From: an uncultured bacterium
GTDB lineage: Bacteria; Bacillota_I; Bacilli_A; RF39; UBA660
Reading direction: 5' to 3'
NCBI GenBank assembly: GCA_947646655.1
Contig: CANSHI010000002.1
Coordinates: forward strand, 62,001 to 126,000
DNA: 64,000 bases
In this document: positions 12,712 through 61,525 of the stretch, in pieces
Layout: each line of letters opens with the position of its first letter
How positions within the stretch are numbered: position 1 is the first letter of the stretch
Program-made: the position numbers and the translations under genes
The notes under the pieces: model-generated
Seen by the model: only the letters and a program-made list of their open reading frames with translations
The model's database searches: none
What the model was told of the DNA's origin: nothing

Positions 12712-12791
12712 TGTGTCTTTTTTCTTTTACTCAATTAATCGTTTGTTGAAAAGTTTTAAGTTTTCCACTATAGTTTTATTAGGTGATAGAA

Positions 12792-13586
12792 ATGGATTAT
12801 GAAAAAATAGGAGCTTTTATAGCGAGCAGACGTAAAAACATAAATTTGACACAAAAAGATTTAGGAGATAAGTTAGGGATAACAGATCGAGCAGTAAGTA
12901 GATGGGAAAGAGGAATCGGGTGCCCTGATATAAGTATGTTAGAACCTTTATCAAAAATTTTAAAAGTTTCAGTTTTAGAGATTTTACACGGAGAGATTAT
13001 AGAAAGTAATGAAAATGAAGTTATTGTGGATATACTAAAATCCAAAAATAAAACTATAAAATTTTGGAAAGTTTTGTCTTTAGTATTTATAAATGTTATA
13101 CTGGGATTTTTACTTTTTCTGATTTTTACTTTATTCTTGTTGCCTATAAGTGTAAGAATCAAAGGAAACACTATATATTCTGTTACTAGTCATTCAATGG
13201 AACCAACTCTTAATATTTATGATAATGTATACTTTGAAACAATTGCGATCGAGGATGTAAAAGAAAATGATATTATACTTTTTCGTTCTTTAGAAAATGA
13301 GTTTTTAGTTGCACACAGGGTAAACAAAATTGTAGATACTAATAAAGGGGTAAGTCTCATAACAAAAGGCGATAATAATAACAGTAATGATAAAGAATAT
13401 GTTACTAGTAGTAATTTTATCGGTAGAATGTATTTTAAAATACCGCGATTAGGTAAATATGCATTAAATAAGGATACAGGAAAACTTGTGAATTTAATGT
13501 TTTTGATGTTTTTAATATTGGGAATTATAAGCATTGCATTTTTAGATTATTTACAATTTAGAAAAATGATCTTAAAAAAATATTAG
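12792..13586 (+). CDS. XRE helix-turn-helix domain fused to a SipW-type (S26B) signal peptidase
   Basis: 264 residues with an unusual two-part build. Residues 1-68 are an XRE helix-turn-helix (LTQKDLGDKLGITDRAVSRWERG). A membrane helix follows at about 94-117. Residues 118-230 form a type I signal peptidase of the ER/SipW class: catalytic Ser135 in SHSMEPTL, His175 in VAHRV in place of the bacterial Lys, and Asp194 in TKGDNN. A second membrane helix lies at about 232-252. The topology would put the HTH in the cytoplasm and the protease outside. The ATG at 12792 has AGGTGA five bases upstream; an upstream in-frame GTG lies within that site. It is an extra gene between jag and mnmE, with terminator and promoter after it. 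Substrates and DNA targets are unknown. Confidence 0.85.
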   Translation: MDYEKIGAFIASRRKNINLTQKDLGDKLGITDRAVSRWERGIGCPDISMLEPLSKILKVSVLEILHGEIIESNENEVIVDILKSKNKTIKFWKVLSLVFINVILGFLLFLIFTLFLLPISVRIKGNTIYSVTSHSMEPTLNIYDNVYFETIAIEDVKENDIILFRSLENEFLVAHRVNKIVDTNKGVSLITKGDNNNSNDKEYVTSSNFIGRMYFKIPRLGKYALNKDTGKLVNLMFLMFLILGIISIAFLDYLQFRKMILKKY

Positions 13587-13594
13587 TGAAGTTT

Positions 13595-13620
13595 TTTGCA
13601 TTTATGCAAACTCTTTTTAT
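13595..13620 (+). terminator. Terminator after the HTH/signal peptidase gene
   Basis: Stem TTTGCA (13595-13600) with TGCAAA (13605-13610), a 4-base loop, then a T-rich run. Confidence 0.65.
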
Positions 13621-55363: not shown

Positions 55364-56581
55364 GTGATGAGTGACAAAAAGAAGAATGAAAAGGACACAA
55401 GTATAGTAAGAATAGCAAGACAGAAAAAAGATTTAGATCCAGTAGCGGTAGGAATGTTTATCGCGGAGAACAGAGGAAGGCACAATTTAACACAAGAAGA
55501 GTTAGCAAATAAAATATTCATATCAAGAAAGACAATATCTAAGTGGGAAACAGGAAAAGGGTTACCTTCAATAGAATTGTTAAGACCATTGTGTGATGAA
55601 TTAAATATAAGTTTATATGAACTATTAATGGGCGAGTTCATAAGAATGGCCTCCGAAACCGAAGGTGGAATAACCAAGAGGATATTAAATAGTCCAAAGT
55701 TCAAAATATCGGTTATATTAGGAACAATTTTACTATTATTTATGATATTGTGTTATTTGATAGTACATTTAAATGATATAAAAGTGTATACAATAAATTA
55801 TGAAGATAAGAATTTCACAATAGAGAATGGAATGATAGTATTTTCCAAGACAGATTGTTTTATAAACTTAGGTGATTTTCATACTGATTTACTAGAAAAT
55901 CACAATTATTTATATGAATTTTATAAAGGTACAGTAGACACAATGAAAGAAGAAGACTTACTATTAAAGTTTACTAATAGTAGTCTAGTATATTTTGAAA
56001 GTGAAAGTTGTAAGGAAATAGAGAAAAATCTAAAAGAACAAAGAAATGACTTTGCGATGAAAATAAGTTATGTAGATGAAAACGGAATGGATACATATTT
56101 TAAGATTGATTTATCGAAATCTATAAAAAGAAGTTTTAAACTGAAGAATTTATATGGAAATAATAATAGTACAGATATAAAAGAAGAGGAAAAGGAAGCT
56201 AAACTAGAGGCTTTACATGGCTATAAATATTTGACAGAATTAGAAGAAGAGGATAAAGCTTTAGATAGGATAAATGTTGCATTTTTATTTAATAAAACCC
56301 CTAGAGAATTAATAGAGGACTTTGATGGAAAAGTTGTAAGTTTTAATGAAGAAGATTATAAAATCATTTATGATACTAATTTAAATATATTGGAAATAAA
56401 AAATGAAATTACATCTTATAAAATTAATTTTCGTTATAGAAGGATAGCATATAATCAAGATAAGTTGGTTTTTTTAACACTTGATGAAGATTATAATATA
56501 AATTTTAATGGGTCTACTACCTTATGTTTTAGTAATATTAAGAGTTTGTTTTCTTCCTTATATGATATGCTATGATGGGTA
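55238..56581 (+). repeat. 1344-base direct repeat, copy A
   Basis: Identical to 60182-61525 except for one silent base seen by eye (G at 55288, A at 60232). Contains the last 126 bases of ychF and the whole XRE receptor gene. Offset is 4944 bases. Confidence 0.9.
55367..56575 (+). CDS. Membrane-anchored XRE regulator, copy A
   Basis: 402 residues (403 if GTG 55364 is used). A charged N-terminal extension (1-25), XRE HTH at about 27-88 (LTQEELANKIFISRKTISKWETG), a membrane helix at about 113-134, and a long outer domain (135-402). The outer domain has a Glu/Lys-rich patch in the middle (KEEEKEAKLEAL) and no known family. Predicted one-component receptor, like the protein at 26308. Begins right after the ychF stop with a poor ribosome binding site, so translation probably depends on ychF. 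Copy B at 60311 encodes an identical protein. Confidence 0.82.
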   Translation: MSDKKKNEKDTSIVRIARQKKDLDPVAVGMFIAENRGRHNLTQEELANKIFISRKTISKWETGKGLPSIELLRPLCDELNISLYELLMGEFIRMASETEGGITKRILNSPKFKISVILGTILLLFMILCYLIVHLNDIKVYTINYEDKNFTIENGMIVFSKTDCFINLGDFHTDLLENHNYLYEFYKGTVDTMKEEDLLLKFTNSSLVYFESESCKEIEKNLKEQRNDFAMKISYVDENGMDTYFKIDLSKSIKRSFKLKNLYGNNNSTDIKEEEKEAKLEALHGYKYLTELEEEDKALDRINVAFLFNKTPRELIEDFDGKVVSFNEEDYKIIYDTNLNILEIKNEITSYKINFRYRRIAYNQDKLVFLTLDEDYNINFNGSTTLCFSNIKSLFSSLYDML

Positions 56582-60181: not shown

Positions 60182-61525
60182 AGTTACGAAGACATAGAGA
60201 GATATAAAACAGAGATAAAAGTAAAAGAAGCAGGAAGATTAAGAGTAGAAGGGAAGGAGTATGAAATGGAAGATGGAGACATCTGCTATTTCAGGTTTAA
60301 TGTGTAAGTGATGAGTGACAAAAAGAAGAATGAAAAGGACACAAGTATAGTAAGAATAGCAAGACAGAAAAAAGATTTAGATCCAGTAGCGGTAGGAATG
60401 TTTATCGCGGAGAACAGAGGAAGGCACAATTTAACACAAGAAGAGTTAGCAAATAAAATATTCATATCAAGAAAGACAATATCTAAGTGGGAAACAGGAA
60501 AAGGGTTACCTTCAATAGAATTGTTAAGACCATTGTGTGATGAATTAAATATAAGTTTATATGAACTATTAATGGGCGAGTTCATAAGAATGGCCTCCGA
60601 AACCGAAGGTGGAATAACCAAGAGGATATTAAATAGTCCAAAGTTCAAAATATCGGTTATATTAGGAACAATTTTACTATTATTTATGATATTGTGTTAT
60701 TTGATAGTACATTTAAATGATATAAAAGTGTATACAATAAATTATGAAGATAAGAATTTCACAATAGAGAATGGAATGATAGTATTTTCCAAGACAGATT
60801 GTTTTATAAACTTAGGTGATTTTCATACTGATTTACTAGAAAATCACAATTATTTATATGAATTTTATAAAGGTACAGTAGACACAATGAAAGAAGAAGA
60901 CTTACTATTAAAGTTTACTAATAGTAGTCTAGTATATTTTGAAAGTGAAAGTTGTAAGGAAATAGAGAAAAATCTAAAAGAACAAAGAAATGACTTTGCG
61001 ATGAAAATAAGTTATGTAGATGAAAACGGAATGGATACATATTTTAAGATTGATTTATCGAAATCTATAAAAAGAAGTTTTAAACTGAAGAATTTATATG
61101 GAAATAATAATAGTACAGATATAAAAGAAGAGGAAAAGGAAGCTAAACTAGAGGCTTTACATGGCTATAAATATTTGACAGAATTAGAAGAAGAGGATAA
61201 AGCTTTAGATAGGATAAATGTTGCATTTTTATTTAATAAAACCCCTAGAGAATTAATAGAGGACTTTGATGGAAAAGTTGTAAGTTTTAATGAAGAAGAT
61301 TATAAAATCATTTATGATACTAATTTAAATATATTGGAAATAAAAAATGAAATTACATCTTATAAAATTAATTTTCGTTATAGAAGGATAGCATATAATC
61401 AAGATAAGTTGGTTTTTTTAACACTTGATGAAGATTATAATATAAATTTTAATGGGTCTACTACCTTATGTTTTAGTAATATTAAGAGTTTGTTTTCTTC
61501 CTTATATGATATGCTATGATGGGTA
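60182..61525 (+). repeat. 1344-base direct repeat, copy B
   Basis: Second copy of 55238-56581. The first 126 bases (60182-60307) are a detached 3' end of ychF without start or body; the rest is the XRE receptor gene. Confidence 0.9.
60311..61519 (+). CDS. Membrane-anchored XRE regulator, copy B
   Basis: Encodes exactly the same 402 residues as copy A: HTH at about 27-88, membrane helix at about 113-134, outer domain to the end. Here it is not coupled to a translated ychF: the ychF tail upstream has no start, so its weak ribosome binding site must work alone, and transcription would come from the promoter at 60096. Dose or timing may therefore differ from copy A. The next gene downstream encodes a secreted protein, a possible target or ligand (inference). 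Confidence 0.82.
   Translation: MSDKKKNEKDTSIVRIARQKKDLDPVAVGMFIAENRGRHNLTQEELANKIFISRKTISKWETGKGLPSIELLRPLCDELNISLYELLMGEFIRMASETEGGITKRILNSPKFKISVILGTILLLFMILCYLIVHLNDIKVYTINYEDKNFTIENGMIVFSKTDCFINLGDFHTDLLENHNYLYEFYKGTVDTMKEEDLLLKFTNSSLVYFESESCKEIEKNLKEQRNDFAMKISYVDENGMDTYFKIDLSKSIKRSFKLKNLYGNNNSTDIKEEEKEAKLEALHGYKYLTELEEEDKALDRINVAFLFNKTPRELIEDFDGKVVSFNEEDYKIIYDTNLNILEIKNEITSYKINFRYRRIAYNQDKLVFLTLDEDYNINFNGSTTLCFSNIKSLFSSLYDML

Follow-up and report, generated by a model that had tools for sequence, protein, structure and literature searches.

The window analysed here, a 64,000-nucleotide stretch of the genome of an uncultured bacterium, contains an open reading frame that encodes in a single chain of 264 amino acids an XRE-type helix-turn-helix (HTH) domain, a membrane helix, a signal peptidase domain of class S26B and a second membrane helix (Table 1). 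This arrangement, including the residues Ser135, His175 and Asp194, had been put forward in a preliminary description of the DNA and was confirmed by the reading frame itself, by profile matches and by hydropathy, which gave two membrane segments. As the DNA-binding domain, a membrane helix and the outer domain all lie in one polypeptide, the architecture is that of a transmembrane transcription regulator. An alternative in-frame GTG at position 12783 would lengthen the protein by three residues, but falls within the ribosome-binding site, the position of which supports the ATG as the start codon. A terminator-like hairpin was seen by eye at about 13591-13613, 3' of the stop codon, where a terminator scan gave no match, and no terminator is claimed.

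Table 1. Features of the XRE-TM-S26B locus, in window positions (TM, membrane helix).
Feature	Position	Strand	Basis or remark
Probable operator, CTCAATTAATCGTTTGTTG	12730..12748	+	Left half differs from the family consensus CTCtACgattcGTTTGTTG
Promoter-like TTGAAA-17-TATAGT, -35 hexamer overlapping the operator	12746..12774	+	Consensus scan, 10/12 matches
Ribosome-binding site AGGTGA	12782..12787	+	Read from the sequence; AGGTGA or GGTGA likewise in several homologues
XRE-TM-S26B fusion gene, 264 aa	12792..13586	+	Open reading frame (ATG 12792, stop 13584-13586), profile matches, homologues, alignment
XRE (HTH_3) DNA-binding domain, residues 1-67, cytoplasmic	12792..12992	+	Pfam HTH_3; P22 c2 repressor fold
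TM1, residues ~94-118	13071..13145	+	Hydropathy; long helix in structure model
S26B signal peptidase domain, residues ~119-225, expected outside	13146..13466	+	TIGR02228; SEC11 by sequence and fold; invariant residues
Catalytic codons of Ser135, His175 and Asp194	13194-13196, 13314-13316, 13371-13373	+	
TM2, residues ~230-252, C-terminus inside	13479..13547	+	Hydropathy

The N-terminal domain was assigned to the XRE (Cro/CI) HTH class on the basis of its profile score and its fold. The HTH_3 profile matched residues 10-63 (E = 9.8e-14, 51.6 bits against a cut-off of 23), and the fold resembles the DNA-binding domains of P22 c2, 434 and SinR, the DNA-bound P22 c2 repressor ranking first among the VIA-align rows covering residues 1-69 (Z 12.8, rmsd 1.8, 66 aligned). 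Matches to PADLOC and PHROG models were also obtained; as these stemmed from the HTH part, with the exception of phrog_4 (repressor, residues 5-171), membership in a defence system or a phage was not accepted.

The remainder of the protein was matched by TIGR02228, the model for archaeal/ER-type signal peptidase I, over residues 101-250 (E = 9e-27, 93.9 bits against a cut-off of 51.85). Ser135 lies in the motif SHSMEP, His175 in AHRV and Asp194 in KGDNN, and all three were invariant in an eight-member alignment and present also in two further intact homologues. Serine in SxSM, histidine replacing the lysine of S26A and aspartate in KGD are the marks of S26B, and profile and intact catalytic set together point to an ER-type S26B signal peptidase that is presumably active as an enzyme. 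When the PDB was searched with a profile of the peptidase part, human SEC11C and SEC11A were found by sequence (E = 5e-20 and 9e-20), and SHSM, HRV and KGDNN fell on the corresponding SEC11 motifs. An AlphaFold2 model built from 16 alignment rows had a mean pLDDT of 77 and a pTM of 0.44, the HTH lying mostly at 92-97 and the peptidase part, predicted with middling confidence, at about 54-88 by block; the best Foldseek hits of the model included two SEC11 structures as well as Cro/CI-type repressors. The earlier label "SipW-type" was appropriate in the sense of an ER-type S26B enzyme, but the SipW equivalog model NF046067 gave 62.5 bits, far under its cut-off of 190. A reading as a self-cleaving repressor of the S24/LexA type, with a Peptidase_S24 match and a Ser-Lys dyad, was rejected, since the S24 score was 12.6 bits against a cut-off of 23.3 and His175 stands at the place of the lysine. 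With Bacillus SipW, archaeal Sec11 and eukaryotic SEC11A/C, the protein shares Ser/His catalysis, the SxSM, HRV and KGD motifs and the TM-domain-TM layout common to S26B enzymes, and with SEC11 the same Ser-His spacing of 40 residues. It differs from these enzymes in its N-terminal XRE domain, in the lack of an adjoining tasA-like substrate gene and in scoring far under the SipW equivalog cut-off.

Nine intact full-length homologues and one interrupted copy were found in other Bacilli, in unrelated neighbourhoods. Seven of 386 genomes of the same family contained full-length matches, at eight loci including that of the window, and these were separated from all others by a clear gap in score (at least 233 bits versus 133). 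Further fusions came from a contig search (L099, L101 and the interrupted copy in L102); L100 was not added, as its contig had been counted before. Samples of 395 genomes from the class and 392 from the phylum yielded no member outside the family at the thresholds used. In the interrupted homologue (L102:1343-2142) the frame changes between the two halves, through either assembly error or decay. With the same architecture in nine intact homologues from independent assemblies, a chance fusion or an assembly error was rejected, and the HTH and protease parts were taken to form one gene and not two. Named records of homologues come from metagenome assemblies (labels: uncultured Tenericutes, Bacilli or Clostridia), and these records suggest a gut habitat.

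When compared with 33 stand-alone S26B domains, the ten fusion peptidase domains formed a single clade (support 100/99 for the whole domain, and 93/89 for the catalytic core with the membrane segments left out), which favours one old fusion event; the tree of the HTH, with 4 changes, is too short for one fusion to be told from several. The HTH was the most conserved part and had the lowest dN/dS (about 0.05-0.18, against about 0.12-0.36 for the S26 domain, by Nei-Gojobori counts), and these values show both halves to be maintained under purifying selection. An origin in a phage or plasmid was dismissed, as no full-length match to the fusion protein was found among phages, plasmids and IMG/VR contigs, and S26 queries gave no match in viral scans. 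Other elements may have moved the gene, as one homologue (G016) adjoins conjugation-type genes.

The preliminary description had attached meaning to the position of the gene in a supposedly highly conserved gap between jag and mnmE. This did not survive comparison: homologues of the XRE-S26B architecture lie elsewhere, and the gap itself is empty or otherwise filled in relatives. The genus was represented by eight other genomes; in at least four of these jag ended 12-54 bp before mnmE, other genes occupied the gap in two more, and mnmE was not found in two. As all six genus genomes having mnmE thus lack the fusion at this place, it is an accessory gene, and the jag-mnmE gap is not its conserved home. 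The neighbourhoods of the other fusions, in which genes were named from sequence by eye, comprise a conjugation-type region (G016), polA-mutM (G267 and G150), ribosomal protein genes with an ABC transporter (G190), secG and rnr (G286), secG (L101) and other genes (G410). Because the neighbourhoods are not conserved, they indicate no substrate or partner.

Other S26B enzymes are encoded in the same genome, several of them stand-alone and some adjoining secreted TasA/camelysin-like proteins. In two regions (L087 and L088, on G000:C1 and C7) stand-alone S26B genes are clustered with several TasA/camelysin-like or large surface proteins, which is the ordinary SipW-type setting. A further S26B relative (L089:6096-6749, G000:C9), in which SxSM reads SNDEM, is probably a dead peptidase. 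Another unusual signal peptidase architecture is that of a protein of 709 residues (L258:5817-7946, G000:C1), in which S26B stands at the N-terminus and is followed by a long C-terminal extension. S26B domains were also seen at the C-terminal end of two proteins of about 380 residues (L234:1474-2613 and L257:721-1881), the N-terminal part of the former looking like many membrane helices.

Residues 1 to about 118 of the fusion are similar to numerous XRE proteins whose membrane helix lies at about residues 95-125, an arrangement referred to here as the XRE-TM chassis. When 68 chassis proteins were scanned, an HTH was present in all, and signal peptidase models matched ten, equal to the number of fusions in the set; the outer parts of the others were Big_14, DUF4825, VanZ, ABC ATPase or unknown. 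The window itself contains two XRE-TM matches that score identically, at about 55442-55789 and 60386-60733, each within a 403-codon frame; placed 4944 bp apart, they look like a direct duplication.

Despite their unrelated surroundings, the fusion genes are preceded by a common motif, aCTC[at]AC-N5-GTTTGTTG, and the same dyad stands, mostly 50-65 bp before the start codon, upstream of the majority of chassis-family XRE genes, including those for peptidase-less XRE-TM proteins. A motif trained on 69 sites, with all fusion genes excluded, placed a site (scores 11.5-26.3) 50-56 bp ahead of the start codon in all 11 fusion genes, and gave a score of at least 10 in 88 of 145 other XRE genes versus 8 of 1371 control genes. 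The site at the locus described here (score 17.5) was the best hit of the whole window, and it overlaps the -35 hexamer of a promoter-like sequence of a type that is common by chance, the position of which fits both operator and start codon. The symmetry of the dyad appears to have been kept as its bases changed. With relatedness ignored, the inner pair was complementary in 61 of 86 distinct sites, as against 28.2 ± 4.2 after shuffling, and the next pair in 82 of 86 as against 76.4, neither value being reached in 5000 shuffles. The complementary inner pairs were of three types (G-C in 26, C-G in 18 and T-A in 17), and in the G286 clade C...G was changed to G...C with symmetry preserved. The left half-site at the locus itself is worn, however, with AAT instead of AAC and a non-complementary inner pair (T/C). 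As the shuffles ignored relatedness and this half-site is degenerate, the claim was tempered: the dyad is a probable operator, likely bound by the fusion's own regulator domain.

In its own genome, no second match to the operator occurred with up to 3 mismatches, and the family pattern with one mismatch occurred at two other places, both inside open reading frames. A search for a regulon by operator with up to 2 mismatches returned 46 matches versus 57 in a reversed control, and no regulon is therefore claimed. Among other Bacillota, XRE-TM genes such as those of L066, L128, L164, L136, L116 and L144 share the covarying dyad CTCWAC-N5-GTWKG upstream. In two further cases (L170 at about 3680 and L166 at about 4918) the operator precedes genes for proteins of more than 900 amino acids with signal-peptide-like starts, which are possible targets of clostridial XRE-TM regulators.

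The DNA-binding domain of ToxR and CadC is a winged helix. The fusion resembles regulators of the ToxR, TcpP and CadC type (PMC10269533) in having a cytoplasmic DNA-binding domain, a membrane helix and an outer domain in one polypeptide, but binds DNA, as proposed, through an XRE domain and has an enzyme as the outer domain, and no co-encoded partner was seen. Transmembrane transcription regulators are widespread according to the same work, the main text of which does not contain the words XRE and peptidase (PMC10269533). In Staphylococcus aureus, a Cro/CI-type regulator is likewise connected with signal-peptidase function, the regulator being the repressor of a transporter by which signal peptidase is bypassed (PMC5013292); there, however, a soluble repressor and a transporter are encoded by separate genes and no peptidase is fused. 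A second role of a signal peptidase has been described for Bacillus subtilis SipW in surface-adhered biofilms (PMC4238804). No description of an XRE-S26B fusion was found in the openly licensed literature, and the conserved, covarying dyad before the fusion genes is new here.

The fusion protein is proposed to be a membrane-tethered, self-regulated signal peptidase of the ER type, a reading to which we give an even chance and in which we infer DNA binding, repression, activity and coupling alike. The XRE domain would stay cytoplasmic and bind, in dimeric form, the imperfect dyad at its own -35 element, dimeric binding being suggested by the conservation and covariation of the operators; TM1 would cross the membrane, the S26B domain would lie on the outer face and TM2 would complete a hairpin. 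Bound in this way, the protein would most likely repress, rather than activate, its own transcription and so hold its own level in check. Were the outer domain occupied by uncleaved preproteins, or otherwise altered, dimerisation or placement might change, relieving repression and yielding more enzyme. This coupling of peptidase occupancy to DNA binding is the weakest and most speculative step.

That the peptidase reads its own workload in this manner, serving as both enzyme and sensor through the HTH in the same chain, is offered as a tentative reading. Similarly modest in probability is a looser linkage, in which the XRE-TM chassis regulates itself constitutively and the S26B domain is merely another secretion enzyme that sends no signal inward. 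The joining of the chassis to many unrelated outer domains, the same operator before other chassis genes and the several stand-alone S26B enzymes in the genome would all fit such an arrangement, and an operator common to peptidase-less XRE-TM proteins says nothing on coupling to the protease. Simple autoregulation does not need a physical link, however, and one old fusion has been preserved whole in different genera, selection acting on each of its halves.

Two other readings depart further from the proposed self-regulated peptidase. The preliminary description had suggested coupling to transcription, either as a sensor or by release of the HTH domain. Coupling to transcription has indirect support from the conserved, covarying dyad that the gene carries at its promoter; release found no support. 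Peptidases of the S24 (LexA/CI) and S26 families have related folds and self-cutting XRE-S24 repressors are known, so that a switch resembling LexA or regulated intramembrane proteolysis (RIP), in which the peptidase cuts its own chain or a partner and frees the HTH, might be imagined. Like the LexA/CI repressors, the fusion joins an HTH to a serine peptidase of this fold group, but it is an S26B enzyme with histidine rather than an S24 enzyme with lysine, has two membrane helices and is expected to carry its active site across the membrane from the HTH. As a cut on the outer face would leave the HTH attached to TM1, a second, intramembrane protease would be needed, and no such partner was seen; in the alignment, furthermore, the conserved residue after TM1 is proline and no conserved A-x-A motif occurs there. 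Release is therefore considered very improbable. It also seems improbable that the HTH has lost its role in regulation and acts instead as a module for structure or localisation, in the manner of RodZ or by holding the enzyme near the nucleoid. The partly degenerate operator and the absence of a regulon from the genome search would agree with this, but the HTH is the part under the strongest constraint, and the operator persists before every fusion gene in unrelated neighbourhoods.

Little is understood of how bacteria adjust signal-peptidase capacity to the load of export. As export enzyme and transcription regulator are here one protein with a defined candidate operator, the question is directly testable on a single gene, a 30-bp DNA site and an active-site mutation. 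If the workload reading is true, the fusion would feed protein export directly back to transcription, with no need of a second messenger or a sensor of its own kind. Beyond the peptidase, membrane-tethered XRE autoregulators with exchangeable outer domains, among which the fusion would belong, apparently form a larger, undescribed class, and the covarying operator offers a handle on this broad family in Bacillota.
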